Assembly (NCBI GenBank): GCA_028714735.1
Contig: JAQTLU010000008.1
Location: 1-64,000, forward strand
Origin: Gallionellaceae bacterium
Lineage (GTDB): Bacteria > Pseudomonadota > Gammaproteobacteria > Burkholderiales > Thiobacillaceae
Length of the DNA stretch: 64,000 nucleotides
Reading direction: 5' to 3'
Made by a program: the position numbers and the translations under genes. The notes beneath the pieces were generated by a model that saw only the letters and a program-made list of their open reading frames with translations, had not been told where the DNA came from and did no database searches. Shown one piece after another: positions 46,370 through 62,739 of this stretch (position 1 is the first letter of the stretch; the number at the start of each line of letters is the position of its first letter).

Positions 46370-46774
46370 ATGCGTCCCCGCATCACCATCCCGCCCGAGG
46401 AAGTCGAGATCACCCCCATCCGCGCCCAGGGTGCCGGCGGCCAGAACGTCAACAAGGTCAGCAACGCCGTGCACCTGCGTTTCGACATCGCCGCCTCGTC
46501 GCTGCCGGAGGCGCTGCGCGAGCGGCTGCTCAGGCTCGGCGACCAGCGCATCAGCAAGGACGGCGTGGTGATCATCAAGGCGCAGGAATTCCGCAGCCTG
46601 GAGAAGAACCGCGCCGAGGCGATGCGCCGCCTGGAAGACCTGGTTGCCGGTGTCGCCGTGGTGCCAAAGGCGCGCCGGCCGACCAAACCGACCCGGTCGT
46701 CGGTCAAGAAGCGGCTGGAGGGCAAGGCGCGCCGGGCGGCCGTGAAGTCAGGCCGCGGGCGGGTCGACGAATAG
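46370..46774 (+). CDS. arfB: Alternative ribosome-rescue factor ArfB (YaeJ)
   Basis: ArfB is a peptidyl-tRNA hydrolase of the RF1-domain family that frees stalled ribosomes lacking a stop codon. The 134 residues are the normal size. The catalytic GGQ is in [22 protein letters not shown], and the C-terminal tail is strongly basic ([27 protein letters not shown]), as needed to enter the mRNA channel. Its last 27 nt overlap the end of the convergent hybrid kinase gene. Confidence 0.95.
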
Positions 46775-49700
46775 GCCGCGCGAGGCCATTTCCCCGCGTG
46801 CCTGCGCCAGCGTCTCCTCCGCCTCGGCATAGAGGAAATGTGTGATCCGCTGCTCCAGTTCCTCGCCCAGGGGACCGAATGCGGCCTTGAGCAGCGCGCC
46901 ATGGCTCTCGACCAGCCGGTTTGCCAGCACGTCGGAATCGGCCAGCATGGCGGCCAGTTCAGTCAGCACCTGGCCGACCCGCGTCCAGTCCACGGTGTCC
47001 TCAGCGGACGCCGCCGCTTCCTCGGGAAGGGCGGCGCGGATGGCCGCGGCCAGCCCATGCAACTCGACTGCCACGGCATCGCTCAGCCGTTCTATCGCGC
47101 CCGCTTCCTGGCCCGCCTTGATGGCCTTCTCCAGCTCGGCGGCCAGACGCTGCACGCCGGTCATGCCCAGGTTGGCCGAGGTGCCCTTGAGGGTATGGAC
47201 CAGCCGCCGCGCCGTTTCCTGATCGGCCTTGGCCAGGTGTTCCCGCAACCGGCTCATGTCGTCGACATGATCGACCAGATAGGTGTGCAGCAGGCGCAGG
47301 TAGACGCCCAGATTGCCGTTCAGCAACCCGAGTCCCTGGGTGGCGTCGAGTCCGGGGATGGCTGCGAGCCCGGCCGGCAGCGCGGCCGCCTCCGGGGCGG
47401 CGACCGGCGCCGGAATCCCGGCACCCGGCAGCCAGCGCAGCAGGGTGTGGTAAAGCCCGTCGGGATCGACCGGCTTGGCGATGAAGTCGTCCATGCCGGC
47501 CTCGCGACAGCGCTCCCGATCCTCGTCGAAGGCGTTGGCGGTCATCGCCAGGATGGGCAGATCCGCATGGCCGGGCAGGGCGCGGATGGCGCGGGTGGCT
47601 TCGAGGCCGTCCATCCCCGGCATCTGCATATCCATCAGGATGAGGTCGTAGCGGCCGTTGCGCACCTTTGCAAGCGCTTCCGCCCCGTCGTTGGCGATCT
47701 CCACCTGCAACCCGAGGCTGGTCAGCAGTTCCACGGCCACTTCCTGGTTGATCCGGTTGTCTTCGGCCAGGAGCAGGCGGGCGCCCATCCGCAGTGCCTG
47801 CGGCCCCGGTGCGGTCGCCGCCGCCGCCTCGGCCAGGTCGCCCGGGCTGAGCCTGCTTTTGCCGAGGCGGCAGGTAAACCAGAAGGTGCTGCCCTGGCCG
47901 GGCACGCTGTGGGCGCCGGCCTCGCCGCCCATCAGGCGCGCCAGGCGCCGGGTGATGGCGAGGCCGAGCCCGGTGCCGCCGTAGCGGCGGGAAATGCTGG
48001 CATCGACCTGCTCGAAGGCCGCGAACAGGCTCGATAGCTTTTCCGGGGCGATGCCGATGCCGGTATCGCTCACTTCGAAGCGGACCAGCAGGTCGGTCTC
48101 CGATTCGCCTTCCTTGCTCAGGCGCACGTCGACCTGGCCCTGCCCGGTGAATTTCACGGCATTGGACAGGTAGTTCAGGAGGGCTTGCGCCAGCCGGGTG
48201 GCATCGCCCACCAGCACCGCCGGCAGGTCATCCCGCTGCAGGACGATGGTCAGCCCCTTTTCGCGCACCTTAGGGCCGATCATGGAGATGACGTTGTCGA
48301 GCATGCGGTCGAAGGCGAAATCGGTGATGTTGAGCGCCAGCTTGCCCGCCTCGATCTTGGAAAAGTCGAGGATGTCGTTGATGACCGAGAGCAGGTGCTG
48401 GGAGGAACTGACGATCTTGTCCAGCCTGACCCGTTGCGATAAATCGGTGGTGTCGCGCCGCAACAGGTGAGTGAGCCCGATGATGGCGTTCAGGGGGGTG
48501 CGGATCTCATGGCTCATGTTGGCGACGAAGGCGCTCTTGGCCTCGTTTGCGGCCTCGGCCGCGACCTTGGCCCGGGCCAGTTCATGGGTCCGGCTGTCGA
48601 CCAGCTCCTCAAGATGATGACGGTAGCGATCCAGTTCCTCGGCGTTGCGCTTGCGCTCGGTGATGTCCTCCTTCACCGAGACGTAGTGGCTGATGCGGCC
48701 ATCGGCCTGGCGGATCGGCGTGATGATGGCGAACTCGGTGTACTCGCTGCCGTCCTTGCGCCGGTTGATGAACTGGCCCTGCCAGAATTGGCCGTGGCTC
48801 AGGGCCGCCCACATGGCCTCGTAAGTCGCCCGCGGCGTCTTGCCGGACTGCAGGATGCGCGGGTTCTGCCCGATGATCTCCTCGCGGCCGTAGCCGGTGT
48901 TGTGCAGGAAGGCCTCGTTGACGTATTCGATGCGGGCGCCGAGATCGGTGATGACGATGTTCTCCGGGCTCTGCTCCACCGCCTGGGCCAGTTTGCGCAA
49001 CTGTTCTTCGGCCTGCCGGCTCTCGGTGATGTCCTCGCCCGAGCTGAGGCTGCCTGCGATGTGGCCGGCGTCGTCCAGGAGCAGGGCATTGTGCCAGCGC
49101 ACCAGGTGCCGGCGGTCGTCGCGGCTGACGACGTGGTTGTCGTTGTACTCGAGCGCGGACAGTTCGCCGGCCAGGATGTGCTGGAATACGGCAAGAGCCT
49201 CCTCGCTATCCCCCGGGGGCAGGCAGGTTGCGAACCAGTTGCGCCCGAGCAGCTCGCTTTCCTCCTGGCCCAGCAGTTCGCAGCCGGCGCGGTTGATCAT
49301 GGTGATCCTGCCCTCCCTGTCCAGGGCCACCATGAAGGACTGCACCGTATCGAGATACTGCTGGTTGCGGTCGTGCTCGCGCTGCAACTCCAGCTCGGCC
49401 TGCTTGCGGGTGGTGATGTCCAGCGCGGTGACCCGGATCAGATGGCTTTCCGGGACGAAATAGATGCGCAGTTCGTAGACGGCCGCCGCGAACATGGCCT
49501 CGTGGATGGCTTCCTGCAGTTCGCCGTTCCAGAACGCGGCAAACATCTCTTGCAGGCCGTCGAGCAGGTTGTGCCGTATCCCCTGCGTGGCCAGGTCCGG
49601 GAACAGCCATTCGGCGACCGGGTTGAGGAAGGTTATCGCCCCGGAGCTGTCGATCTCGAACACGGGGTCGGGATTCAGCCTGGGGAAGGAGGCCAGGCGG

Positions 49701-50089
49701 AGGATTTCCTGCTGGCCAAGCTGGCGGTCGACGGCATGGCGGACGTGCTGCAGCAGGTCGTCGATATCGTAGGGCTTCAGCAGGTAGGAGAAGGCGCCCT
49801 TGTTGGTCGCCTCGACGGCCGTTTCCAGGGCGGCATGGCCGGTCAGGATGATGACCTCGGTGAGGGGGGTGGCGAGCTTGATCCGGCCCATCACCTCGAT
49901 GCCGGACATGTCGGGCAGCATGAGGTCGATCAACGCCACGCTGACCAGCGCGCCCCCGGCCTCGGCGATCCCCTCGGCCCCGCTGCCGGCGGCGGCCACG
50001 TCATAGCCCTTGATGCGCAGGATGTCGGAGAGCGTCCGCCTGAGGTTGGCGTCGTCGTCCACCACCAGGATTCTGGGCTTGCCGGTCAT
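46748..50089 (-). CDS. Hybrid histidine kinase REC-PAS-PAS-PAS-HisKA-HATPase-REC-HPt
   Basis: This 1113-residue cytosolic phosphorelay kinase has no membrane segment. REC1 (about 5-120) carries D55, three PAS domains lie at about 130-225, 240-355 and 370-480, and a coiled coil leads to HisKA with H527 in [14 protein letters not shown]. HATPase has the N box [12 protein letters not shown] and G boxes DTGIGI and GGTGLGL. REC2 carries D820 and HPt carries H965 in [13 protein letters not shown]. The REC1 input suggests it is itself phosphorylated by the operon's other kinases. Its start overlaps the diguanylate cyclase stop by 4 nt and its end overlaps arfB by 27 nt. No output regulator of transcription is nearby. 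Confidence 0.95.
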
Positions 50090-51300
50090 TCGGCAGCGTC
50101 CTGGCCAGACAGGGTCTCGACCCGGTTCCGGCCCTGCGCCTTGGCCCGGTAGAGGGCATCGTCCACCCGCTTCAGGAGCGAATTCAGATCGTCGCGGACT
50201 GCGAATTCGGTGGCCCCGAAGCTGACCGTCAGTTGGCCGATGCGGTCGAAGGGGTGCCCGGCGATGGCCAGGCGCAACTTCTCCGCCGCCTCCCTGGCGG
50301 CCGGCAGGCCCGATTCCGGCATCAGCACCATGAATTCTTCCCCGCCCCAGCGCGCCAGGACGTCCGCGGCACGGGTGTTCTGCCGCACCAAGCGGGTGAC
50401 CTCCTGCAAGACTTGGTCGCCCACGTCATGGCCGTAGGTGTCGTTCACCCGCTTGAAGAAATCGAGGTCGTACATCAGCAGCGACATGGGCACGCCGTAT
50501 CTTTTTGCCCGTTCCACCTCGCGGCTCAGGATGGTGGTGAACTCGCGCCGGTTGATCAGGCCGGTCAGGCTGTCGGTGGTGGCGAGCAGGTGGATTTCCT
50601 CCTCGGCCTGCTTGCGTTGGGTGATCACCAGGACGTAGATGCGGATGAGTCCGACCTCCTGGACGTAGGAGATATGCAGTTCATAGGTCGCCCCGTCGAT
50701 ACTGACCTCATGCACCATCTCGCCCGACAGCCGGTGTTGCTGCAAGGCGGCGAACAGGGCCGCCGAGCCGTGCAGCAGGGGATGCGTCATCGCCAGCGCC
50801 GCCAGATCCGGAAACAGCCTCTCGGCGGCCGGGTTGAGGTAGGTCACCTCGCCGGCCGGATCGAGCTCGATCACCGGGCTGGGCAGCAGGCGCGGGAACG
50901 AGGCCAGGCGGAGTATCTCCTCCTGGGCCTGCTTGCGTTCGACCGCGTGGCGGATCTTCTGCAGCAGTTCATCCATCTGGTAGGGTTTGAGCAGGTAGGA
51001 AAAGGCGCCCCGGCTGGTGGCCTCGATGGCGGTGTCCATCGAGGCATGCCCGGTCAGGATGATCGCCTCGGTCAGCGGCGAGTTGGCCTTGATGCGCGCC
51101 ATCACTTCCAGCCCGGACAGGTCCGGCAGCATCAGGTCGACCAGGGCCAGGGCGAAGGTTTCCCGGTCCGCCGCCGCGATCGCCTCGGAGCCGTTGGCGG
51201 CGGCCTGCGTGGCATAGCCCTTGATGCTGAGGATGTCGGACAGCGTCTTCCTCAGGTTGGGGTCATCGTCCACCACCAGGATCTTTTCCTTCGCTTTCAC
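50086..51300 (-). CDS. Receiver-PAS-GGDEF diguanylate cyclase
   Basis: This 404-residue response regulator makes c-di-GMP when phosphorylated. REC (about 5-120) carries D55 with K105 in LLKPY; a PAS-like segment spans about 130-230. The GGDEF domain has GGEEF at 318-322 and an RxxD inhibitory site (RAAD, 309-312). Residues 1-165 are closely similar to the N-terminus of the hybrid kinase downstream, for example TLSDILxIKGY and [11 protein letters not shown], so the two share one receiver module. It lies between the double-REC gene (gap 13 nt) and the hybrid kinase (overlap). Confidence 0.96.
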
Positions 51301-51313
51301 CGTCCTTCTCCGG

Positions 51314-52060
51314 TCAGGCCGAGACGAGCATGCTTTTCAGCTTCTTGAGCCGGATCTCCTCGATCAGGAGAAACAGGTCATCCAGCTCCAGGGGCTTGTA
51401 CAGGCAAGTATAGGCGCCGATCCTGCGCGCCAGCTCGATCGAATCCGCCATTTCCTTGCGGTAGCCGGTCATCAGCACCACCGGCTTGCCCGGGTAGCGG
51501 GCCTGGATTTCTTCCATGACATCGACGCCGTTCACCGTGCCCAGCTTGAGGTCGAGCAGGACGATGGCCAGCTTGTAGTCCTGTTCCAGGTGATCCATCA
51601 CCCGTTCCGGTTCGCTCTCGGTTTCGACCCGGTAGCCCCGCATGGCCAGGATGTCCTGCAGCGTCCGGCAGAATGCGGGGTCGTCGTCGACCACCAGGAT
51701 GCTTTCCTCCTTGTCCAGCAGGGAAAGGAAGGACAGGACCATGGGGAAGTTGAGCGGTTTGCACAGGATGGCATAGGCGCCGGCGCGTCTCGCCTCGTCC
51801 AGGAGATCGTCCGCCGCATAGGCGCTGACCAGGACCACCGGGAGCGCGGGAACGATCTGCCGCATCCGCTTCAGCGCCTCGACCCCGTCGATGCCGGGCA
51901 TCTTGATGTCCATCAGCACGCAATCGGGCGGATCGTTCCTGACCTGCTCCACCCCCTCTTCTCCCGAATAGGCCGGAATGGCTTCGTGGCCCTTGATCTT
52001 CAGGATGTCGCAGGTCGTTCGCACGATGCGACGGTCGTCGTCCACCACCAGTATCCTCAT
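51314..52060 (-). CDS. Tandem receiver-domain protein without output domain
   Basis: This 248-residue protein is made of two REC domains. REC1 (1-115) has ILVVDDD, the phosphoacceptor D51 in VLMDIKMPG and K101 in LCKPLN. REC2 (about 118-240) has ILVVDDD, D170 in VLLDLKLG and a K in LYKPLEL. No effector domain follows, so it may act as a phosphate sink, an intermediate, or a scaffold between kinases and their targets. Gaps are 27 nt to the upstream kinase and 13 nt to the diguanylate cyclase. Confidence 0.95.
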   Translation of the reverse strand: MRILVVDDDRRIVRTTCDILKIKGHEAIPAYSGEEGVEQVRNDPPDCVLMDIKMPGIDGVEALKRMRQIVPALPVVLVSAYAADDLLDEARRAGAYAILCKPLNFPMVLSFLSLLDKEESILVVDDDPAFCRTLQDILAMRGYRVETESEPERVMDHLEQDYKLAIVLLDLKLGTVNGVDVMEEIQARYPGKPVVLMTGYRKEMADSIELARRIGAYTCLYKPLELDDLFLLIEEIRLKKLKSMLVSA

Positions 52061-52087
52061 TGCCTACCCCCCGTTCGTTATTTTGCT

Positions 52088-53143
52088 TTAGGACAATTCA
52101 TTCTTGCGACTACCCACGGTCTGCCCTGGCAGCGTGATGCTGAACACGCTGCCCTGGCCCGGTACGCTGACCACCACGACGCTGCCGCCGTTGGCCAGGG
52201 TCAGGTTCTTCACCACCACCAGGCCCAGCCCGACGCGCCGCGCCTTGGTGGTGAACATCGGCTGGAACAGGCGCGCCTGGTGTTCCGGCGCGATGCCGCT
52301 GCCGCTGTCCTCGATGGCGACCGTCACGGTATCCGCCACTATATCTGCACTCGCCCTGATGGCCAGTTCGCCGCCCTCCGGCATCGCCTCCACGGCATTG
52401 GTGACCAGGTTCCACAACACCTGATGCAGATGCATCGGGTCGACCCGGATCAGGGGCAGGGTGTGCGGGATGTCCTGCCTGACGGTGACAGCGGCGGGGA
52501 TGTCGCACTTGCGCAGGGTCTGGGCGAGCGCCTCGGCCAGGTTGACCAGCGCCGGGTGCGGCGGCTGGGTGCGCACCGCATCCAGCAGGTCGGACACGAT
52601 GCGATCCGCGTCCGCGATCTCGCCCTTGATGATGCCGAGATATTCCAGTGTGGTCGCGTCCGCGTCGGCCAGCACGGTTTGCAGGAAGTACACGGCATTG
52701 TTCATCACTCCGAGCGGGTTGCGCAGTTCGTGCCCCACGGTGTCCGCCACCTGGCCGAGCAGCGCCAGCTTCTCCGACCGCAGCAGTTCCTCCTGGGCCG
52801 CCAGCACCTGCCGGCTGCGTTCCGCCACTTTCGCCTCCAACTCGGCGTTCAGCCTGCGGGTTTCCATCTCGGCCTGCTGGCGCCGTCCGGCCTCGTCTCG
52901 GATCGTATCGAGCATGGCAATCACGAAGGCCACCAGGACCAGGCCGTCGAGGAAGGGCGTGACCACCCCGGCAAACTCCAACTCGGCGCTCAGGCGGCCG
53001 TCCCAGAGCAGATCGATGGTCAGGACGATCAGCACCGAGACCAGCACGGCCACACCCAGGAACAGCACGGCAAAGCGCCTCGAACTGATCCGGAGCAGGC
53101 GCTGAACCGCCTGTTTCATGACCCGGTTGAAGATATCCGGCAT
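52088..53143 (-). CDS. Membrane histidine kinase with minimal periplasmic sensor
   Basis: This 351-residue kinase has two membrane segments (about 25-44 and 62-79), with about 17 residues between them on the outside. A coiled coil leads to the DHp helix with H138 in VGHELRNPLGVMNNAVYFLQ. The HATPase region has NLVTNAVEAMPEGG and DSGSGIAP. I start at 53143 (MPDIFNR), where AGGAGAAATG lies directly before the ATG. With so little periplasmic mass it may sense through its membrane segments or a partner protein. It starts 1 nt after the dCache kinase stop. Confidence 0.93.
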   Translation of the reverse strand: MPDIFNRVMKQAVQRLLRISSRRFAVLFLGVAVLVSVLIVLTIDLLWDGRLSAELEFAGVVTPFLDGLVLVAFVIAMLDTIRDEAGRRQQAEMETRRLNAELEAKVAERSRQVLAAQEELLRSEKLALLGQVADTVGHELRNPLGVMNNAVYFLQTVLADADATTLEYLGIIKGEIADADRIVSDLLDAVRTQPPHPALVNLAEALAQTLRKCDIPAAVTVRQDIPHTLPLIRVDPMHLHQVLWNLVTNAVEAMPEGGELAIRASADIVADTVTVAIEDSGSGIAPEHQARLFQPMFTTKARRVGLGLVVVKNLTLANGGSVVVVSVPGQGSVFSITLPGQTVGSRKNELS

Positions 53144-53144
53144 G

Positions 53145-54923
53145 TCATTTCTCCTCGTGATCCGCTGCGGGCAGGGTGACTGAAAATACCGTGCCTTTGC
53201 CCTGGATGCTGGCGGCCTCGACCGTGCCGCCATTGGCCTCGACCAGGTTCCTGGCCACCACCAGGCCGAGGCCGATGCCGCGCGCCTTGGTGGTGAACAG
53301 GGGCTGGAACAGCCTGGCCATGTCTGCCGGCGCGATGCCGCCGCCGCTGTCGCGCACGCTGACGATGACCGCCTTGCCGTCTGCGGCCGCCCGGATTTCC
53401 AGCACGCCGCCCTCCGGCATGGCGTCCACCGCGTTGCCGACCAGGTTCTCGAAGGCCTGCCGGATCTGGCTGGCATCGACCCGGACGGCGGGCAGCGTGG
53501 CGGGAATGTCCAGGCGCACGGTCACCCCGGCGGGCGGGACGCATTTGCGCAAGACCTGCTCGACCAGAACTGCCACGCCATGCGAGGCGGGCATCGGGGG
53601 CCGGGTTTGCACCGCATCCGTCAGATCGGTCACGATGCGCTCCGAGCGGGCGATCTCGTCCCGGATGATGCCGAGGTATTCCTTTACGTCGGCGTCGGAG
53701 CCAGCATTCGTGGACTGGAGGAAATACACCGCGTTGCTCATCGCCGCCAGTGGATTGCGCAACTCATGCCCCACGCTGGCCGCGACCTGGCCCAGCAGCG
53801 CCTGCTTCTCCCTTTTTACCAGTGCGTCCTGGGCGGGCCGCAGCTTGTCGATCATGGTGTTGAAATTGGCCGCCAGTTCGCCGAACTCGTCCTCGCTGCG
53901 CACGACCAGCCTGCTATCGAGCTTGCCGCCTGCCACCTGCCGCACGCCTCGCACCAGTTCCCCCAGCGGTCTCAGGAAGTGCCGGCCGATGAGGCTGTAC
54001 AGTCCGGCCAGCACCAGCAGCACGGCGAACACCAGCACCGCCGTCGCCATGGCCATACGCCGGATCGGGGCAAAGACCTTGTCCGACGGCTGTTCCAGCG
54101 CCAGGCGCCAACCGCTGCCGCGATAGTCCTGCACCCCGCCTTGCGCCACTTCCACCTTCAGGGCTTCCCCGGCGCCGTGGCTGTCGTGGGGCGCTATGGC
54201 ATAGCCGGACTTTTCTTCCTCGGCGACCACGCGCTCCGCAGGGGCCGTCAATTCGTTATTGACGGTATCGACGCTGCGCCTGGCGATCACAGCCCCGGCG
54301 CGGTCAAGCAGGTGGACCGTGGCGGCCGGGTCGGTGTGATCGAGGATGCCCTGGACGTCCGCCCAGCGGTAATGGGCGACCACCACGCCCACCACCCGGC
54401 TCCGGTCGGCCTGGCCATAAACGGGCGCGGCAAAGATCACCACCGGCATCCCGGTGCGGCGACGGACCACCCGGTCCGTATAGTTGATTTCGCCGTTCAG
54501 GGCGCGTTGAAAACCAGGCACGCTGGTGACATAGGCCGAAATGGCCGTTTCATCGCCCAGCGGCTTGGGCGCAATTACGGCGTGGCCATCGGCATCGAAC
54601 ACCGCGAGTGCGTCCCAGGGGCCCGTGAGGCGTTCCCGCTCTTCCAGTTCGTCCGCCACCATCCCGGCCATGGCGCGATTGGAGGGCGACTCGAGAAACC
54701 CGGCCAGCAGTTCATCGGCGGCGATCGTGCTGACGCCCTGGTAGGCATGGTACATGGCGGTATCGATCTCGCGCATGATGCCCCGGGCACTCTGGACCTG
54801 CTCCTGGATGATGCGTTCCTGCAATATGAAACGGGCCTGGAAGAACACCGCGGCCCCGAGCAGCGGCCCGATGATCAGCGCCGCCGTGGCGGCGCTGAGG
54901 CCGATTTTATTGGCGAAGCGCAT
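53145..54923 (-). CDS. dCache-HAMP histidine kinase
   Basis: This 592-residue membrane kinase is built as follows. TM1 is at about 8-28, the periplasmic dCache domain is at about 35-285 (VFDADGHAVIAP ... FQRALNGEINYTDRVVRRRTGMPVVIFAAPVYG), TM2 is at about 291-312 and a HAMP domain is at about 313-365. The DHp helix carries H386 in SVGHELRNPLAAMSNAVYFL, and the HATPase has DSGGGIAP and LGLVVARNLVEANGGT. dCache domains usually bind small ligands such as amino acids or carboxylates; the ligand is unknown. The start overlaps the preceding kinase stop by 1 nt (TGATG). Confidence 0.95.
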   Translation of the reverse strand: MRFANKIGLSAATAALIIGPLLGAAVFFQARFILQERIIQEQVQSARGIMREIDTAMYHAYQGVSTIAADELLAGFLESPSNRAMAGMVADELEERERLTGPWDALAVFDADGHAVIAPKPLGDETAISAYVTSVPGFQRALNGEINYTDRVVRRRTGMPVVIFAAPVYGQADRSRVVGVVVAHYRWADVQGILDHTDPAATVHLLDRAGAVIARRSVDTVNNELTAPAERVVAEEEKSGYAIAPHDSHGAGEALKVEVAQGGVQDYRGSGWRLALEQPSDKVFAPIRRMAMATAVLVFAVLLVLAGLYSLIGRHFLRPLGELVRGVRQVAGGKLDSRLVVRSEDEFGELAANFNTMIDKLRPAQDALVKREKQALLGQVAASVGHELRNPLAAMSNAVYFLQSTNAGSDADVKEYLGIIRDEIARSERIVTDLTDAVQTRPPMPASHGVAVLVEQVLRKCVPPAGVTVRLDIPATLPAVRVDASQIRQAFENLVGNAVDAMPEGGVLEIRAAADGKAVIVSVRDSGGGIAPADMARLFQPLFTTKARGIGLGLVVARNLVEANGGTVEAASIQGKGTVFSVTLPAADHEEK

Positions 54924-56566
54924 CAGGCGGCCCCTTCGGCCGGACCGGCGCAGGGCAGGGTGACCGTGAAGACCGTGCCCCGGCCGGGTTCGCTCTGCAC
55001 TTCGATCCTGCCGCCGTTGGCTTCGGTCAGGTTCTTCACCACCACCAGGCCGAGGCCGATGCCGCGCGCCTTGGTGGTGTAGAGGGGCTGGAACAGCCGG
55101 GTCATCTGCTCCGGCGCGATGCCGCTGCCGGTGTCCCGCACGCTGATGCTGACCGCCCCGTCCGCCTCGGCTGCCGCTATGGTCAGGGTGCCGCCTGTCG
55201 CCATGGCGTCGATGCCGTTGCTGATCAGGTTGCGCAGCACCTGCTGGACCTGCTGCGGGTCCACCCGCAGGGGCGGCAGCGTGGCCGGGATGGCCTGCTC
55301 GACGGTCACGCCGTCGGGGACCGGGAGCTTGCGCAGGGTCTGGCCGATCAGTTCCGCCAGCCAGACCGTTCCGGCTTGCGGCGGCTTGGTGCGCACCGAA
55401 TCGAGCAGGTCGGACACGATGCGTTCGGCCGTGGCGATCTCGGTCTTGATCAGGACCAGGTATTCCTGGGTGGTCGCGTCGGCCTCCGACAGCACGGTCT
55501 GCAGGAAGTACACCGCGTTGTTCATCACCCCGAGCGGGTTGCGCAACTCGTGGCCGACGCTGCCGGCCACCTGGCCCAGCACCGCCAGTTTTTCCTTGCG
55601 TACCAGGTCCTCCTGGGCCGCCAGCAGTTGTCGGGTGCGCTCCTGCACCTTTTCTTCGAGTTCTTCGTTGAGCCGGCGGACCTGTTCTTCCGCCTGCCTG
55701 CGCTCGGTGACGTCCCTGGCGATGCAGATGGCGGCAATTTCACCGCCGGGGTCCATCGGCACGATGCTCAGCTCGGAATCGAAATATTCGCCCGACGCCT
55801 TGGCGATCTTCAGTGCGAAAACCGGCGTGGAGTGGCCGGCAAGGGTGTTCCGGAAGACCTCGATGGCCCGCGGCAGGTCGTCCGGGTGGATGATCTGCGC
55901 GAAGGGCTTGCCGAGCCAGTTTTCGGGTTGCCAGCCGGTCAGGCGCGCGAACGCCGGGTTGAGCGAGCAGAACCTGCCATCCGGCGCCAGCAGGCAAATG
56001 ATGTCGTCGGCGTACTCGAAAATGCCGCGGTAGCGGGCCTCGCTTTGCCTGGCCAGGTTCTGCGCCCGATACAGGCTGCGTATCGGCAGATGCCAGAGCA
56101 CCGCAAACATGCCCAGGCCGGCCGCGATGACGATCAATCCGAGCAGCCCGGTCTGCAACAGCAGGGGCCGGAGGGAACGCGAGATCTCGACCTGGCCGAC
56201 GACGCCGCCGGCATCGGTCAGGGTACGCGAACAGCTTATGACCGGAAATTTCGGGACGCCGGCTATCCTGGCGATAACCTCTTTTTTCTGGTTGAAAATG
56301 CGTCCGCCCTGGCTCTCATCCGAAGACAGCAGGCGCGAGAAGTACTCCTCCATCCGCACTTGTTCGAATTCCCAATAAACCGGATTCCGGCTGACGATGT
56401 TCTGGGTGATGGCATGGGCGATGACCTCGGTCTCGCTTTCCAGGCTCCCGGTCATGTAGCGATAAGTGATATACGAATAGCCCGCGGGTACGGCGAGCAC
56501 GGTGACGCCGACGAATAGCGCCACCAGCCATGCCACGGTGCGAGCCAGGTTGGCCGTGGGGGCCAT
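54923..56566 (-). CDS. Membrane histidine kinase with periplasmic loop and PAS
   Basis: This 547-residue kinase has TM1 at about 11-31, a periplasmic segment at about 32-135 with weak similarity to sCache-type loops, TM2 at about 136-158, and a PAS/PAC domain at about 175-290. A coiled coil leads to the DHp helix with H339 in SVGHELRNPLGVMNNAVYFL and a HATPase domain. The DNA for its last 260 or so codons is nearly identical to that of the 908-residue kinase. It starts 3 nt after the binding-protein stop, so this kinase could read the bound state of that protein. Confidence 0.94.
   Translation of the reverse strand: MAPTANLARTVAWLVALFVGVTVLAVPAGYSYITYRYMTGSLESETEVIAHAITQNIVSRNPVYWEFEQVRMEEYFSRLLSSDESQGGRIFNQKKEVIARIAGVPKFPVISCSRTLTDAGGVVGQVEISRSLRPLLLQTGLLGLIVIAAGLGMFAVLWHLPIRSLYRAQNLARQSEARYRGIFEYADDIICLLAPDGRFCSLNPAFARLTGWQPENWLGKPFAQIIHPDDLPRAIEVFRNTLAGHSTPVFALKIAKASGEYFDSELSIVPMDPGGEIAAICIARDVTERRQAEEQVRRLNEELEEKVQERTRQLLAAQEDLVRKEKLAVLGQVAGSVGHELRNPLGVMNNAVYFLQTVLSEADATTQEYLVLIKTEIATAERIVSDLLDSVRTKPPQAGTVWLAELIGQTLRKLPVPDGVTVEQAIPATLPPLRVDPQQVQQVLRNLISNGIDAMATGGTLTIAAAEADGAVSISVRDTGSGIAPEQMTRLFQPLYTTKARGIGLGLVVVKNLTEANGGRIEVQSEPGRGTVFTVTLPCAGPAEGAA
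54935..55718 (-). repeat. Kinase-module repeat copy A
   Basis: This ~784-bp block matches 57445-58228 without indels at a constant offset of 2510. Most 60-base stretches carry 0-3 differences, apart from one divergent patch near 55145-55195. It spans the coiled coil, DHp and HATPase of the 547-residue kinase. Confidence 0.95.
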
Positions 56567-56569
56567 GGC

Positions 56570-57406
56570 TTACTTCCGCGGCCCGACGACGTAGTTCCCT
56601 AACTCATCCAGTAGCCGTGCGACAGGTTGCGAATGCACGAACTCGATGAATCTTCGCACCCGTTCGGGCGGGTTGGGCTGGGTGACCAGATATAAGCCCA
56701 TGACCAGCGGATAGGTACCGTTGGCGATGTTCGCTGCGCTGGGCACGACACCATTGAAGGGCAGAACCTTCATCTGGCGGTTTTCGGAACGGATCAGGCT
56801 CAGGGTCGAAAACCCGATGGCGTCCGGAATTTTTTCTATCAGATCGGCGGCCTCCTGCGAGGTCAGCGCGACCGTTGCGTCCGCGCGCGAGGCGAGCCTG
56901 CGCTCGATGGCAGCCCCGATTTCGGGAAAGCGTCTGCTGATCAGGGTGGACTCTGCATCGTTTGTCGGGCGCAATATCGGCCGCATGCGCTGGCCTTGGG
57001 GCCGGCCGACCTTGAGCATGTTCAAGAACCCGGCCTCGCTCAGGCCCGTCAAGGGATGGCCAGCCTTGACGGCAAAAACCAGCGGGGTCCGCGCATATTC
57101 GGTGACGTCCAGTCCCAGCTTCTGTTCCTGGTCGGTCAGTAATCGGGCGCTCAGGCCGATGTCGATGGCCCCCTTGGCGACCGCCTTGATGCCGCCGCTG
57201 GTACCCAGGCTGGGCAGCACGACCACCGTGTAGCCGGGATGGGATTGCTCGAAAGCGCTGCCCAGCCGCTTCATGGTGCCCAGGGCGCCGCCGTTGCCTC
57301 CGAGCGTGAGCGTTTCCCCGGCCAGGGTGGGCTGCGCCGTCAGGCAACCGACGATGGCCAGGACGCAGGATAGTGCCACCCTGTATTTTTTTTTGGTTAA
57401 CGACAT
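56570..57406 (-). CDS. PstS-like periplasmic phosphate/oxyanion-binding protein
   Basis: This 278-residue exported protein has a signal peptide (VALSCVLAIVGCLTAQPTLAGE) followed by a type 2 periplasmic-binding-protein fold of the PstS class. LTLGGNGGALGTMKRLGSAFEQSHPGY and the anion-loop signature LPSLGTSGGIKAVAKGAIDIGLSAR are visible. The ATG at 57406 has AAAGGATTTGAT upstream; an earlier ATG/GTG (57433/57436) overlaps the preceding kinase stop. No permease or ATPase gene is present, so I infer a sensory role, presenting ligand to one of the flanking kinases. Confidence 0.88.
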   Translation of the reverse strand: MSLTKKKYRVALSCVLAIVGCLTAQPTLAGETLTLGGNGGALGTMKRLGSAFEQSHPGYTVVVLPSLGTSGGIKAVAKGAIDIGLSARLLTDQEQKLGLDVTEYARTPLVFAVKAGHPLTGLSEAGFLNMLKVGRPQGQRMRPILRPTNDAESTLISRRFPEIGAAIERRLASRADATVALTSQEAADLIEKIPDAIGFSTLSLIRSENRQMKVLPFNGVVPSAANIANGTYPLVMGLYLVTQPNPPERVRRFIEFVHSQPVARLLDELGNYVVGPRK

Positions 57407-57432
57407 ATCAAATCCTTTGCTCGGATACCGCA

Positions 57433-60159
57433 TCACGTCGCCTCTTCGGCCGGACCGGCGCAGGGCAGGGTGACCGTGAAGACCGTGCCCCGGCCGGGTT
57501 CGCTCTGCACTTCGATCCTGCCGCCATTGGCCTCGGTGAGGTTCTTCACCACCACCAGGCCGAGGCCGATACCGCGCGCCTTGGTGGTGTAGAGGGGCTG
57601 GAACAGCCGGGCCATCTGCTCCGGCGCGATGCCGCTGCCGGTGTCCCGCACGCTGACGGCCACGCTCATGCCATCGGCGGCCGCCGTTATGGTCAGGGTG
57701 CCGCCTTCGGCCATGGCGTCGATGCCGTTGCTGATCAGATTGCGCAACACCTGCTGGACCTGCTGCGGGTCCACCCGCAGGGGCGGCAGCGTGGCCGGGA
57801 TGGCCTGCTCGACGGTCACGCCGTCGGGGACCGGGAGCTTGCGCAGGGTCTGGCCGATCAGTTCCGCCAGCCAGACCGTTCCGGCTTGCGGCGGCTTGGT
57901 GCGCACCGAGTCGAGCAGATCGGACACGATGCGTTCGGCCGTGGCGATCTCGGTCTTGATCAGGACCAGGTATTCCTGGGTGGTCGCGTCGGCCTCCGAC
58001 AGCACGGTCTGCAGGAAGTACACCGCGTTGTTCATCACCCCGAGCGGGTTGCGCAACTCGTGGCCGACGCTGCCGGCCACCTGGCCCAGCACCGCCAGTT
58101 TCTCCTTCCGCACCAGGTCCTCCTGGGCCGCCAGCAGTTGTCGGGTGCGTTCCTGTACCTTTTCTTCGAGTTCTTCGTTGAGCCGGCGGACCTTTTCTTC
58201 CGCCTGCCTGCGCTCGGTGACGTCATGGAAGATGCCGGCCAGGAAGGGATGTCCCGAAAGCGTCATGGGCGAGGCGCTGACATCGGCAAAGAATACCGAA
58301 CCGTCCTTGCGTTGCACCGGCAGATTGAGCGCCACCCGGATCTCGCCTTTCAACTGGCGTTCGAACTGCTGCCGCACGTTAGGCAGCGCCTCTGCCGGGT
58401 GGATGTCTTCCATGCTGAGCCGGTACAACTCCTCCTGCGTGTAACCCAGCATGGCGCAGACCGCCTGGTTGGCGATGACGAACTGGTGGGTATGGCCATC
58501 CGCCACCAGGATGCCGTCGACGGCGGACTCGAGTATGGTCCTGAACCTGAGTTCGGACTCCTCAAGGGCCTGCGCGGCCAGCTTGCTCTCGGTGATGTCT
58601 TCGTAGACCCCCATCACGCCGATGGTTTCATGGGCTTCGTTGCGCAAGGGCACCTTGGAGGTGCGCAGCCAGATGCGGCCGCCGTCCGGCGTGGTCTGCG
58701 GCTCGTCGTAGGAGAGTGTAGGGTTGTTGGTATCCATTACCCGGCGGTCATCGGCCCGATAAAGCTCCGCCCGGTCCTGCCAGCCCATGTCGAAGTCGGT
58801 CTTGCCGATCATCGTGTCCGGATCGGCCATCCCGGCGTCGTGCGCAAACAGGGTATTGCAACCCAGGTAGCGCAGGTCGCGGTCCTTCCAGAACACCCGC
58901 ATGGGGATGGTCTCGATGATCAGTGAGGTCAGTTCCTGCTGCCGGCGGATTTCCTCCTCCGCCCGCTTGCGCTCGGTGACGTCCCGGGCGATGCCGATGG
59001 CGGCAATCTTGCTGCCCGGGCCGACCGGGACGATGCTCAGTTCGGAATCGAAATAACCGCCCGATTTACGGGCGAGGCGCAGTTCGAACACCGGCGTCGA
59101 CTGGCCGGCCAGGGTGTTCCGGAAAATCTCGGCGGCACGCGGCTGGTCGTCCGGGTGGACGATGGGCATGAAGGGCTTGCCGAGCCACTCTTCGGCCGGC
59201 CAGCCGGTCAGGTGCTCGAAGGCGGGGTTGAGCGAGTGGATGTTTCCCTCCGGCGTCAGCAGGTAGATGATGTCGTCGGCGTATTCGAAGATGCCCCGGT
59301 AGCGGGCCTCGCTTTCACTGATCCTTTCTTCCGCCTGCCGGCGCTGGACCAGTTCCTGTTCCAGCAAGGAGTTGGTCTGCCGCAGTTCGGCGGTGCGCTG
59401 GACGACCTTCTCCTCCAGTTGCTGGCGTTGTTGTGCCAGCTCGTCGTCCTGGATCTGGATCTGCACCAGCATGTCGTTGAAACCCTGCGCCAGGGTTCCC
59501 ACCTCGTCCTTGCCGGTCAACTCCGCGCGCAGGCCATAGTTCTTTTCCCGCGAGACGGTGCTCATCAGTCCGACCAGGTATTGCAAGGGGTCGGTAATGG
59601 CCGGAAGCAGGCGCAATACCAGCGTCACCGCCACCAGCAAGGCGCCCGTCGACGCGACGACGATCATCAGCAGGCTCCACGCCAGGGCCTCGTACACCGG
59701 TGCCATGCTGGAACGGACATGGAGCGAACCGAGCCGCTCCTGCTTCAGGACCACGGGAAGGACGATTTCGAAGTGGGTCATCGTGTAGATGTTGCCCATC
59801 CCCTCAGCGCCATGATGACGATGGGGCGGCATGGCCGACCCCGGCCGTACATAGGCCGCCAAATCCTGGCCATCCTTGCCGAACAATTCGGCAAACTCGA
59901 TGTTGTCGATGACGGCCAGGGCATCGAGGGTTTGCTCCGCCGCCTCGCGGTCGTTGAAGGCCAGGGCCGCCGTGCTGTTGGCCGCGACGATGCTGGCCTG
60001 GGCGTAGACATTCCGTTCCAGCGCATTGCGCTGCTGGAACCACTGCTGGGCCGTCAATGCCAGCATGGCAAACAGCGTCGCCGCCACGGTGGCGACAAAG
60101 GCGGTGAACATCAGCTTGCCGCGGATGGAGGCGTCCTTGAACGCGGCAGGGAGTCTCAT
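57433..60159 (-). CDS. CHASE8-HAMP-triple-PAS histidine kinase
   Basis: This is a 908-residue membrane kinase. TM1 (about 14-35) precedes a periplasmic CHASE8-type domain (about 36-165, with QQRNALERNVYAQASIVAANSTAALAFND), TM2 is at about 165-188, and HAMP is at about 189-240. A coiled coil is followed by three PAS/PAC units (about 285-400, 405-525, 535-655) and the DHp helix with H700 in SVGHELRNPLGVMNNAVYFL. The HATPase completes it. The TGA overlaps the start of the YfiR-like gene reading frame by 4 nt at its 5' side. Three cytosolic PAS domains suggest added inputs such as redox or small ligands. Confidence 0.94.
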   Translation of the reverse strand: MRLPAAFKDASIRGKLMFTAFVATVAATLFAMLALTAQQWFQQRNALERNVYAQASIVAANSTAALAFNDREAAEQTLDALAVIDNIEFAELFGKDGQDLAAYVRPGSAMPPHRHHGAEGMGNIYTMTHFEIVLPVVLKQERLGSLHVRSSMAPVYEALAWSLLMIVVASTGALLVAVTLVLRLLPAITDPLQYLVGLMSTVSREKNYGLRAELTGKDEVGTLAQGFNDMLVQIQIQDDELAQQRQQLEEKVVQRTAELRQTNSLLEQELVQRRQAEERISESEARYRGIFEYADDIIYLLTPEGNIHSLNPAFEHLTGWPAEEWLGKPFMPIVHPDDQPRAAEIFRNTLAGQSTPVFELRLARKSGGYFDSELSIVPVGPGSKIAAIGIARDVTERKRAEEEIRRQQELTSLIIETIPMRVFWKDRDLRYLGCNTLFAHDAGMADPDTMIGKTDFDMGWQDRAELYRADDRRVMDTNNPTLSYDEPQTTPDGGRIWLRTSKVPLRNEAHETIGVMGVYEDITESKLAAQALEESELRFRTILESAVDGILVADGHTHQFVIANQAVCAMLGYTQEELYRLSMEDIHPAEALPNVRQQFERQLKGEIRVALNLPVQRKDGSVFFADVSASPMTLSGHPFLAGIFHDVTERRQAEEKVRRLNEELEEKVQERTRQLLAAQEDLVRKEKLAVLGQVAGSVGHELRNPLGVMNNAVYFLQTVLSEADATTQEYLVLIKTEIATAERIVSDLLDSVRTKPPQAGTVWLAELIGQTLRKLPVPDGVTVEQAIPATLPPLRVDPQQVQQVLRNLISNGIDAMAEGGTLTITAAADGMSVAVSVRDTGSGIAPEQMARLFQPLYTTKARGIGLGLVVVKNLTEANGGRIEVQSEPGRGTVFTVTLPCAGPAEEAT
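57445..58228 (-). repeat. Kinase-module repeat copy B
   Basis: This is the partner of the block at 54935-55718, in the same orientation and 2510 bp further on. It lies in the 3' part of the 908-residue kinase gene. Unequal crossing over between the two copies would delete the binding-protein gene. Confidence 0.95.
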
Positions 60160-60707
60160 TGCCGGCCGCCCGGTTCCGCCACGATGCGGGCCACCTTGAG
60201 CAGTTGCGAGCTGATCTTCAGCCCGGCGCGCCCGGCGGCGGCCGGATTGATTTCAAAGCGCACCTTGTTCTGCTCCAGGTAGAAGTTGATCGCCACGCCC
60301 TGGGCGGCGTAGCCCTCGCTGTCGGCCACGGTCAGGACCGGGCTGCCCTTGAGGCCGTCGAGCAGGCGCGGCAGCTTGTCCGCCTCGGAGGCCTCGATGA
60401 ACAGCACCTGGCATTCGCCCAGGTCGCTGCGGCTGCCGACCGGCACCACCTCCCAGGCCGCGCCGCCGACCCGCTTGCCGCGCAAGCCCTCGGCGGCTTC
60501 GGCGAACTGGCCCTGCCCCAGGATGCACAGGCGCAGGCTGGAACGCGCCTTGATGGCGGCCGGCCACTCGACATACTTGGCGAAATTGTGGACGAAGGCG
60601 GCCTTGACTTCGTACTCCGCCAGCGGTGCCGCCGGCACGCCCGCGCAGTACAGCGCGAGCAGCGCGGCCCAGAGGATGGCGAGCGGCCGGTTCAGGGAGG
60701 TTTTCAA
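60156..60707 (-). CDS. YfiR-like (DUF4154) periplasmic protein
   Basis: This 183-residue exported protein is of the YfiR family. A signal peptide (LAILWAALLALYCAGVPAA) is followed by the characteristic YEVKAAFVHNFAKYVEWP, then CILGQGQF, VLFIEASEADKLPRLL, LTVADSEGYAAQGVAINF and NKVRFEINPAAAGRAGLKISSQLLKVARIV. In Pseudomonas YfiR is a redox-responsive periplasmic repressor of a diguanylate cyclase; here a kinase and a diguanylate cyclase lie in the same operon. The start is probably the TTG at 60707 (GGGGGCGCCACC upstream); an ATG at 60764 would extend into the receptor gene. It follows the TonB receptor by 16 nt. Confidence 0.85.
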   Translation of the reverse strand: MKTSLNRPLAILWAALLALYCAGVPAAPLAEYEVKAAFVHNFAKYVEWPAAIKARSSLRLCILGQGQFAEAAEGLRGKRVGGAAWEVVPVGSRSDLGECQVLFIEASEADKLPRLLDGLKGSPVLTVADSEGYAAQGVAINFYLEQNKVRFEINPAAAGRAGLKISSQLLKVARIVAEPGGRQ

Positions 60708-60723
60708 GGTGGCGCCCCCGGCT

Positions 60724-62739
60724 CTAGAAACGATAGACGGCCTTGAGCCGGAAGCTGCGGCCATCCTGTCCGATCAGGTCCTCGACATGCTCGGGGCGGC
60801 CGGGGTCGGCATAGTGCCGGTCGAACAGGTTGTAGACGCTGGCGGAGACCTCCAGTCCCTCGGCCAGCTTCCGGTTCAACAGGGTCAGGTTGGCGATGGC
60901 GTAGCTGCCCGCCCTGGCGCCGGCCAGGGTCTTGCGGGCGCTGGTGTACTGCAGTTCCATCCCGGCCCGCCAGGCCTCGCCGAACAGGGGCATGGAATAG
61001 TTGAGCTTGGCCAGGTGGCGGGGCGAATTCTCCAGGGTCGTGCCGGTATCCTGGGAGCGGGTGATCTGCCAGGCGTAGCTGGCCCGCAGCCGGGTATCGT
61101 CGGCCCAGGCGCGCTCGACCTCGAACTCGGCGCCGTTGGCCTTGAACTGGCCGATGTTGCGGAAGACGTTGTAGCCGTCCGTGTCGGTGATCTGGCTGAT
61201 CAGGTTGCTGATCTCGTTCTGGTAGACGGAGGCGGAAACGCGGAAGTTGGCCTGGAACTGGTGCTCGACGACGATCTCGTAGCTGGTGACCTCCTCCGGT
61301 TCGAGGCCGACACTCGGTTTCGAGCCCAGGCTGGCGCTGGAGTAGTACATCTCGTAGGCGTTGGGGGCGCGGAAGGCGGTGCCGTAGAGCAGCTTGACCG
61401 CCGTCTCCGGCTGCGGCGTGTAGATCAGCGCCAGGCGCGGGTTCCAGGTGCCGCCCACGGTGGAGAAGTGATCGTAGCGCAGTCCCGCATTGAGCCGCAG
61501 TCGCTCGCCCAGGGGCAGGTCATCCTGGATGTACACGGCCTGGCGCTGACTGCTGTGCTGTTCATCCAGATAGACCTCATAGGGCGCCTGATCGTAGTTC
61601 TTCATGTCCTGGCGGAAGTTGTCCTGGTACTCCGCCCCGAATACCAGCTTGTGGCGATCGAACTGCCCGACCAGCCTGGCTTCGGCGCCCCACCATTCGG
61701 CCCAGGCCTGGTCCTTGTTGAGGGTGACCGGCGGCGCGTCATAAGGAAAGACGGAGTCGTAGAAATAGCCGCCGTAGAACACCCGGCCGGACAGGTCGAG
61801 GCGTTCGCCCAGCTTGCCGGCGTAGGCCAGGTCGAGCACGGCCTGGGAATCCACCGTCTGGGTGCGGGGGTCGTTGAACACGCTGCCGAAGGAGGCCGTG
61901 GGTACCCCTTGGGTGCTTTCTGAATATGCGCTGGTCAGGGTAAAACCTGCATAGGACAACTTGCCGTAGAAGTTCTGGTAGCTGCCATGATCCCGTTTCC
62001 GGGCGATGCCGTTGTTGGTGTCCGGGCTGTCGAACTCCGGGAAATACAGGTTCTGCCCCCGGCTGTCGGAATAGCTCGTCGACAACAGGATTTCGGCACC
62101 GTTATCAAGCTGCCGGCCATAAGTCAGGCGCCCCTTGCCGGTGCCGTAGCTCGCGGCCGACCCGGCCGCCTCCCAGCCGTTGTAGTCGCGTCCGCGTTTG
62201 CTGATGACGTTGACCACGCCGAAAAAGGCGTTGCTGCCGTAGATCGAGGAGCCCGGTCCGCGCACCACTTCCACCCGGTCGATGAGGTCGACGTCGAGGA
62301 AGAGTTCGTTGCCGATCGAGGCGGTGTCGTAATTGGCGTCGTTGACCCGGATGCCGTCCACCAGCAACAGGATGCGGCTGTTGTAGTCGCCGGGACGGTT
62401 GAAGCCGCGCACCCCGACGTATCGGTAGTTGCGGTCGCTGGTGACGAACAGGCCGCGCAGGCTGCCCAGGATGTCAGCCAGGGTGCGGTAGCCGTAGTTC
62501 CTGATGTCGGCGGCGGTGACGATGCTGACCGCGGCCGGGGCCTCGGTGGTCTTCTGGGCAAACCGGCTGGCGCTGTAGACCTCGACCGAGAGCAGTTCCT
62601 CGATCGAAAGTTGGGTCAGGTCGGCGGCTTCCTCGGCGCTCGCGGGGGTGGCCAGGACAAGCAGCAGCGCGCCGGCGCAGGCCGTGAGGCGCAGGCAGGG
62701 CGATCGATCGGCGGCAAGGACGGGCAAGACGATAACCAT
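60724..62739 (-). CDS. TonB-dependent outer-membrane receptor
   Basis: This 671-residue outer-membrane receptor starts with a signal peptide (LRLTACAGALLLVLATPASA). A TonB-box-like start (LTQLSIEELLSVEVYSAS) leads to the plug domain (about 45-180, with PAAVSIVTAADIRNYGYRTLADIL, GVRGFNRPGDYN and VEVVRGPGSSIYGSNAFFGVVNVI). The barrel ends in the aromatic FRLKAVYRF, with YSSASLGSKPSVGLEPEEVTSYEI as a receptor signature. The ligand cannot be named; the plug resembles siderophore/cobalamin receptors. It heads the ten-gene signalling operon, with AGAGGGGATATCAG before the ATG. No ExbB/ExbD or full TonB gene is in the window. Confidence 0.93.
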   Translation of the reverse strand: MVIVLPVLAADRSPCLRLTACAGALLLVLATPASAEEAADLTQLSIEELLSVEVYSASRFAQKTTEAPAAVSIVTAADIRNYGYRTLADILGSLRGLFVTSDRNYRYVGVRGFNRPGDYNSRILLLVDGIRVNDANYDTASIGNELFLDVDLIDRVEVVRGPGSSIYGSNAFFGVVNVISKRGRDYNGWEAAGSAASYGTGKGRLTYGRQLDNGAEILLSTSYSDSRGQNLYFPEFDSPDTNNGIARKRDHGSYQNFYGKLSYAGFTLTSAYSESTQGVPTASFGSVFNDPRTQTVDSQAVLDLAYAGKLGERLDLSGRVFYGGYFYDSVFPYDAPPVTLNKDQAWAEWWGAEARLVGQFDRHKLVFGAEYQDNFRQDMKNYDQAPYEVYLDEQHSSQRQAVYIQDDLPLGERLRLNAGLRYDHFSTVGGTWNPRLALIYTPQPETAVKLLYGTAFRAPNAYEMYYSSASLGSKPSVGLEPEEVTSYEIVVEHQFQANFRVSASVYQNEISNLISQITDTDGYNVFRNIGQFKANGAEFEVERAWADDTRLRASYAWQITRSQDTGTTLENSPRHLAKLNYSMPLFGEAWRAGMELQYTSARKTLAGARAGSYAIANLTLLNRKLAEGLEVSASVYNLFDRHYADPGRPEHVEDLIGQDGRSFRLKAVYRF

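Follow-up and report, generated by a model that had tools for sequence, protein, structure and literature searches.

Several described systems resemble parts of a ten-gene locus on the minus strand of a Gallionellaceae contig (JAQTLU010000008.1), here analyzed over the 64,000 nucleotides (nt) of its positions 1 to 64,000, i.e., the window. In the YfiBNR system of Pseudomonas aeruginosa, as in this locus, a YfiR-like periplasmic protein adjoins a CHASE8-HAMP membrane protein, and Malone et al. 2012 describe distant Yfi systems in which sensor histidine kinases replace the GGDEF domain of YfiN (PMC3375315). The Caulobacter receiver MrrA has no output domain and is phosphorylated by at least six kinases in a bow-tie layout (PMC5964349). 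Taken together, the evidence makes it probable that the window carries one version of an expandable multi-sensor kinase array, whose shared receivers would set the level of cyclic di-GMP (c-di-GMP). The features of the locus, in order of transcription and with lengths in amino acids (aa), are as follows.

g1: 60724-62739, minus strand; TonB-dependent receptor, plug and barrel, 671 aa; candidate input partner of g2 and g3 (Pfam)
g2: 60156-60764, minus strand; YfiR-like periplasmic protein, 202 aa (DUF4154 155 bits; NF053591 134 bits)
g3: 57433-60159, minus strand; CHASE8-HAMP-PAS(x3)-kinase, 908 aa; shared core 57436-58125 (Pfam)
g4: 56570-57436, minus strand; PstS-like periplasmic binding protein (PBP_like_2), 288 aa (Pfam)
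g5: 54923-56566, minus strand; membrane PAS kinase, 547 aa; shared core 54929-55615 (Pfam, core search)
g6: 53145-54923, minus strand; dCache-HAMP-kinase, 592 aa; shared core 53151-53831 (Pfam, core search)
g7: 52088-53143, minus strand; last kinase ahead of the hub, 351 aa; shared core 52124-52795; member of the hub-adjacent kinase clade (Pfam, core search, tree)
g8: 51314-52060, minus strand; double receiver without output domain, the hub landmark; REC1 51746-52054, REC2 51365-51700 (Pfam)
g9: 50086-51300, minus strand; predicted REC-PAS-GGDEF diguanylate cyclase with GGEEF and RxxD (Pfam, translation)
g10: 46748-50089, minus strand; REC-PAS-PAS-kinase-REC-Hpt hybrid (Pfam)
Repeats: 62820-62892, no strand assigned; two direct repeats 5' of g1 (62820-62843 and 62869-62892), candidate operator of the array promoter

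In the open reading frame (ORF) list of the window, all ten genes run on the minus strand from 62739 to 46748, with junctions of -41, -4, -4, 3, -1, 1, 27, 13 and -4 nt in order from g1 to g10; for g7, the ATG at 53143 (351 aa) was used, not the listed ORF start at 53476. The coordinates confirm the claim of an earlier sequence-only reading that ten same-strand genes lie here with gaps of 27 nt or less (junctions -41 to +27 nt). Pfam also agreed with the domain orders given there and assigned CHASE8-HAMP-PAS-HisKA-HATPase to g3, PAS-HisKA-HATPase to g5, HisKA-HATPase to g7 and REC-PAS-PAS-HisKA-HATPase-REC-Hpt to g10. The soft spots were g6, in which the dCache_1 match preceding HAMP-HisKA-HATPase barely exceeds the cut-off (45.5 bits vs 45), and the PAS domain of g9, which is weak (19.4 bits, under the cut-off of 22.6). 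No transcription factor was found by Pfam among the ten proteins of the putative operon, as that reading had also proposed.

Compared with YfiBNR, the locus differs in three respects: the output of YfiN is GGDEF, whereas the CHASE8-HAMP protein g3 has a kinase output; the outer-membrane neighbor is the TonB receptor g1, not YfiB, and Pfam found no domain of this PAL-type outer-membrane lipoprotein in any of the ten proteins; and the g1-g2-g3 set is one cassette of several. The same three gene kinds form the NCBIfam TOL_0244/TOL_0243/YfiR-associated kinase set (NF053590, NF053591, NF053592), of which only NF053591 passes here (NF053590, 158.9 bits vs a cut-off of 645; NF053592, 160.9 vs 194). 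These models make no mention of an array, and no paper was found for TOL_0243 in the full text of open-licence papers. MrrA is likewise a receiver hub without an output domain, but it is a single receiver, whereas the array combines a double-receiver hub with neighboring kinases and outputs, the kinases sharing one core. GacS/RetS-type multikinase networks also connect several kinases to one output, but the array kinases are paralogs within one locus, share one core and are linked to c-di-GMP. Histidine kinase duplication with input-domain shuffling (PMC4603909) is the same evolutionary process, here repeated within one locus beside a conserved receiver hub. The parts are known, i.e., Yfi systems with kinase outputs (PMC3375315), many-kinase receiver hubs (PMC5964349) and input shuffling (PMC4603909); the combination of same-core kinases, double receiver and c-di-GMP outputs is undescribed among the matches listed from the open-licence literature.

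One line of evidence for an array is a core of about 225-230 aa common to g3, g5, g6 and g7. When the 230-aa g3 core was searched against the whole genome, identity reached 95% for g5, 67% for g7 and 61% for g6; identity then dropped to 28-47% for the remaining 21 kinase matches (E ≤ 1e-15), the higher values over part of the core only. The four proteins carry a single core beneath different sensors, rather than being kinases of separate families. HELRNP was read in the translations of all four. As in a multikinase network, one donor interface is thus shared by several kinases of the window.

The arrangement recurs in other genomes. Scanning genome contigs with g8 yielded 33 loci, from which four were dropped (L034-L037, 32-44% matches to receiver parts only); four loci of the same order and the window were added, giving the 34 finally compared, with L046, whose contig equals that of L018 in length, left out and taken as the same record. 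They originate from Betaproteobacteria, Methylococcaceae, Desulfobulbaceae and others, and are mostly metagenome-assembled. With a kinase counted only at ≥44% identity over ≥180 aa to the g3 core, same-core kinases stand beside the double receiver in 33 of the 34 loci (82 kinases in total), a recurrence beyond chance; the sole locus lacking one, L006, is on a contig that begins just upstream of the double receiver. Eight loci contain one kinase, ten two, nine three, four four, one five and one six, all lower bounds because many loci stop at contig ends; split or cut kinases, e.g., in L005, are missed by the identity rule. In 27 of 32 loci, no more than 265 nt separate the double receiver from the last kinase, and in 26 of 33 a REC-PAS-GGDEF gene is its immediate 3' neighbor. 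Among the other seven, two end at that point, one is cut by the contig end, three (L009, L024, G294) have a receiver-bearing GGDEF-EAL protein and L030 has a kinase. An array defined as a double receiver, REC-PAS-GGDEF and at least one same-core kinase is thus present in the window. As a separate observation, the double receiver of L031 (9675-11422) is split into two receiver ORFs with a 210-aa ORF in between.

HELRNP is found in 79 of the 82 array cores, and H+11 Asn, H+12 Ala and H+16 Leu, positions which we take to participate in receiver recognition, are invariant in those 79 although the sensors and phyla differ. Because the phosphate-donating helix is nearly invariant, every array kinase could address the same receivers. 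In each input cassette, the common HisKA/HATPase core would be joined to a sensor, which either works by itself or has a partner (TonB receptor plus YfiR, solute-binding protein, ODP, FIST). The common targets would be g8, which has no output and may buffer phosphate or serve as its hub, together with the g9 and g10 REC-PAS modules. Ligand events would shift each core between kinase and phosphatase states, and the cores would compete for g8, g9 and g10. The output of g9 would then follow the kinase/phosphatase balance over all inputs (HisKA members retain H+4 Asn), and phosphorylated g9 would produce c-di-GMP. The TonB/YfiR signal may enter via g3, the g4 ligand via g5, and others via g6 and g7. 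By analogy with Yfi systems (PMC3375315), YfiR may restrain the CHASE8 kinase g3, and the TonB receptor may alter YfiR. The double receiver g8 would buffer or distribute phosphate; it is retained also in loci where no Hpt protein was seen. The shared core, its recurrence, the variety of sensors and outputs and a near-copy core are visible in the sequences; phosphotransfer, the direction of effect and the ligands are inferred. The sequence-only reading had already proposed several input kinases converging on shared receivers, and the comparison supports several inputs on one core beside receivers that recur with it; the common core itself, the REC-PAS half described below and the recurrence had been overlooked.

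The predicted diguanylate cyclase g9 matches REC (95.5 bits) and GGDEF (152.6 bits), with GGEEF preceded by RxxD five residues upstream. It resembles PleD-like receiver-controlled diguanylate cyclases in its receiver, GGDEF, active-site motif and putative I-site, and scores 220 against the PleD equivalog model, below the cut-off of 474. Its N-terminal REC-PAS half is 59% identical to that of g10. Among 20 hub-side proteins of other loci analyzed with Pfam, a subset of those existing, all had a receiver; eight carried the HD-GYP-type domain HD_5 (one cut), seven GGDEF-EAL, one GGDEF and four a kinase. Domains of c-di-GMP metabolism (GGDEF, EAL or HD_5) are thus present in 16 of 20, and the window, whose last gene encodes a kinase-Hpt protein and whose operon has no phosphodiesterase, shows a less common form in this sample. 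The hub of L005 is followed by a GGDEF-EAL protein with a receiver, of which no close copy was found in the genome of the window; the best match with a receiver was 40% identical, and the overall best, 47%, did not include the receiver.

Under the proposed array, g10 would be a second, optional relay branch that ends in Hpt, with its partner regulator outside the operon. One could instead regard this relay, from Hpt to an unlinked regulator, as the main output and c-di-GMP as a side branch: g10 is the largest protein, its Hpt is intact, and L005 encodes a similar protein (REC-PAS-kinase-REC-Hpt). Elsewhere, only four of the 20 hub-side proteins are receiver-kinases and L005 alone has an Hpt match, while 16 carry c-di-GMP domains, and we consider a main relay output very doubtful. 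Of the two outputs claimed by the sequence-only reading, c-di-GMP is supported by comparison, and the downstream phosphorelay appears to be optional.

Arrays would grow by copying of the core beneath a new sensor. Between g3 and g5, nucleotide identity is 95.5% over 785 nt (coiled coil and core) and 81.6% over the 375 nt of PAS. The two cores encode the same amino acids at 160 codons (nonsynonymous divergence, dN, 0; synonymous divergence, dS, 0.084), and dS is 0.091 for the whole core segment vs 0.353 for PAS (synonymous difference p 2.6e-5, Fisher). A single duplication explains this less well than conversion of the core at a later time or its being copied twice. A dCache kinase is directly 3' of the CHASE8 kinase in L018, L020, G294, G308 and G337; something else comes next in seven other CHASE8-kinase loci, and in the window g4 and g5 intervene. 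A binding-protein sensor on a copy of the neighboring core was probably acquired in the lineage of the window, because g4 and g5 sit between kinases that are adjacent in five relatives, the core is a near-copy, G294 is the nearest relative in the hub tree (99/94), and a comparable pair exists in L027, a Nitrospirae locus in which a g4 homolog (39%) adjoins a kinase with a g5-like N-terminus (29%). Same-locus kinase groups with starred support were recovered in six loci (the window, L008, L014, L015, L022 and L024) in a kinase tree built by a quick method. In L022, five kinases group together (97); they include a neighbor of an ODP gene, a Tll0287 kinase and a neighbor of an NMT1 protein. Four dCache kinases also form a clade.

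A receiver signature on alpha-1, K/R-T-x-x-D-I-L-x-x-K/R-G, is complete (7/7) in REC1 and REC2 of g8, the REC of g9 and the N-terminal REC of g10. At its C-terminal receiver, g10 matches only two of these positions, and 81 other genome receivers match 0-4; these 81 come from 84 non-operon receiver matches, three partial ones being left out. The signature is consistent with shared recognition and falls short of proof because it was chosen post hoc and plain identity sets the g8 receivers no further apart. Several observations weigh against the array as proposed. The signature was picked after the array receivers had been seen, and over the same stretch g8 REC1 and REC2 share 6 and 8 of 16 positions by plain identity, the background maximum being 8. 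Over the whole domain, the g8 receivers are 32-35% identical to those of g9 and g10, and REC1 reaches 35% with unrelated receivers. The cores of the distant loci L026-L033 are just 45-61% identical to that of g3. One more-diverged island of 32 codons in the g3/g5 core complicates a simple copy. Finally, the nearest core lies in another locus for 58 of the 74 kinases of multi-kinase loci, so the majority of cassettes are old; with the nearest core in the same locus in just 16 of 74, general concerted evolution of the array kinases is not supported.

The distance of the g8 receivers from those of g9 and g10 would also suit insulated parallel pathways, in which each kinase has its own receiver (e.g., g7 to g8, g3 to g9, and g5 or g6 to g10) and the operon only co-expresses them. 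The four kinases are matched in number by the operon receivers that could be their targets, and the hub-adjacent kinases form a clade of their own (20 of 32 rows; support 99, starred), which might indicate a dedicated partner. We regard such insulation as improbable: the donor helix is nearly identical in g3, g5 and g7, and the double receiver and REC-PAS-GGDEF persist in loci with anything from 1 to 6 kinases.

The distribution of the array is patchy. The double receiver was detected at E ≤ 1e-60 in 3 of 117 genomes of the family; for the order the count was 5 of 399 and for the phylum 1 of 398, the own genome included each time; these counts are lower bounds, with 6 to 23 candidates scored per genome. 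This patchiness (3/117 and 5/399, window included) and the near-copy cores would be expected if the kinases were recent tandem duplicates of little function, accumulating by duplication and horizontal transfer without signal integration. Catalytic motifs are, however, retained in nearly all 82 cores, and a comparison of G308 with G337 indicates purifying selection on each of their three kinases (core dN/dS 0.10-0.15), which leaves this explanation quite improbable relative to a functional array. In the hub tree, rows titled Desulfobulbaceae/Desulfocapsaceae fall inside a starred 25-row set with betaproteobacterial rows and stand apart from Nitrospirae, Desulfuromonadales and Geobacteraceae. 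Grouping the seven deltaproteobacterial-titled rows together was rejected (p 0.0002), although newer taxonomy may assign these to more than one phylum. L031, L032 and L033 were left out of this tree, two being too short and one having no assigned double receiver. The tree suggests transfer of the double-receiver locus between phyla, with binning errors possible because nearly all named records are metagenome-assembled. Carriage on plasmids is not supported, as g8 had no match in the plasmid collection at E ≤ 1e-30.

The inputs vary widely. Pfam assigned PAS (PF00989) to 32 of the 82 array kinases, HAMP to 26, CHASE8 to 12 and dCache_1 to 11; Phosphonate-bd, Tll0287-like, MASE3, dCache_3 and sCache_3_2 occur in two each and CHASE3 in one. 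Adjoining partner genes encode ODP (L012, L022, L024), NMT1 (L022, L031), ABC_sub_bind (L023, L028), FIST (L032) and PBP_like_2 (window, L027). In the window, the nearest solved structures by sequence are the colicin I receptor for g1, then BtuB and ferric enterobactin receptors. FecA-type TonB transducers have an N-terminal signalling (secretin/TonB, STN) domain; in g1, no STN domain was found before the plug, the Pfam matches at E ≤ 0.01 being plug, barrel and a weak barrel match. For g2, DUF4154 (155 bits, cut-off 24.9) and NF053591 (134 bits, cut-off 125) pass, NF053586 sequest_YfiR does not (51.3 bits, cut-off 85), and the protein aligns with solved YfiR. The structure nearest to g4 is 1twy, a periplasmic substrate-binding protein, followed by PstS proteins.

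TonB receptor homologs are present in 7 of the 33 other loci, and a YfiR homolog was found in five of these seven; in L017 and L020, none was found with the ORF choice used. The genome itself contains a second TonB-YfiR-CHASE8 set (C5:16000-31000; L158 6728-12263), in which the kinase is instead a hybrid that carries a receiver and Hpt and shares 30% identity with the array kinases in its core. The idea that the TonB receptor is the organizing signal, i.e., what the operon links, as the sequence-only reading had it, was therefore rejected as the leading idea, both for its occurrence in only 7 of 33 loci and because the second set uses a non-array kinase.

Three of the 82 array kinases carry Asn (AAC/AAT codons) in place of the phospho-His and retain H+1 Glu, H+4 Asn, the N box and both G boxes:

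L030_k1: L030 4694-6334; Asn for His
G308_k2: L042 9227-11128; Asn for His
G337_k2: L044 13961-15790; Asn for His

Between G308 and G337, core dN/dS is 0.145 for the His-less kinase and 0.131 and 0.098 for its neighbors, rough ratios with dS near or above 1. Because its ratio resembles those of its neighbors, the His-less kinase seems to be kept for a role independent of its own His, as a phosphatase or a mixed-dimer partner. In L030, the kinase behind TonB and YfiR is the His-less member. The pseudokinase ChrS of Corynebacterium glutamicum (PMC9491836) is likewise a histidine kinase acting without normal kinase function; unlike it, the three array members lack only the phospho-His and stand beside intact same-core kinases. 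Mixed dimers between array kinases with different sensors, combining signals before any receiver, are thinkable because the dimerizing, phosphate-accepting helices are nearly the same (in g3 and g5, their amino acids are identical), though we judge them rather unlikely. If they form, L030_k1, G308_k2 and G337_k2 could be ATP-binding partners that phosphorylate the His of the other kinase in trans, and every copied core would add an input plugging at once into the existing kinase pool. Alternatively, the His-less members may be dedicated phosphatases; in either case, one input could drive or veto another.

Receiver specificity usually holds two-component pathways apart. The array seems to favor the reverse, keeping the interface and exchanging the sensors, with c-di-GMP outputs alongside. 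If true, nature would here provide a plug-in design by which a c-di-GMP decision, such as biofilm versus swimming, acquires further inputs, and the natural sensor-core fusions, including those with ODP, FIST, MASE3 and Tll0287 inputs, could be useful for engineering. It would also allow receiver competition and mixed dimers to be tested directly against each other as ways in which near-identical kinases integrate signals. Many record titles name iron-oxidising, sulfur-cycling and methane-oxidising genera, for which, speculatively, attachment decisions could matter.

About 500 bases separate g1 from the next listed minus-strand ORF upstream. Within this stretch, the starts of the two 24-nt repeats are 49 nt apart, and at ≤1 mismatch their shared pattern has no genomic occurrence besides these two; the repeats (62820-62892) are a possible operator of the array promoter. 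A conserved operator was rejected, as the other 33 loci hold no match to the repeat better than 3 mismatches. An RNA element was likewise rejected, since an Rfam scan of 44-64 kb at gathering scores gave no match and the g1 leader fold is ordinary (z 0.21). Promoter-like matches (3 vs 1.9 ± 1.1 expected from shuffled sequence) and terminator-like matches (14 vs 10.0 ± 2.0) were near chance.

A few gene neighborhoods deserve separate mention. ODP genes, encoding diiron beta-lactamase-fold proteins, adjoin array kinases at L022 504-2280, L012 5855-7637 and L024 2118-4992, and ODP as a histidine kinase input may be interesting separately. At L032 1878-4249, a FIST sensor protein gene adjoins an array kinase directly ahead of the receiver gene. 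In the Nitrospirae locus L027 (692-9999), a chemoreceptor-like gene (4HB-HAMP-MCP signal) and more receiver/kinase genes lie upstream of the array kinase.

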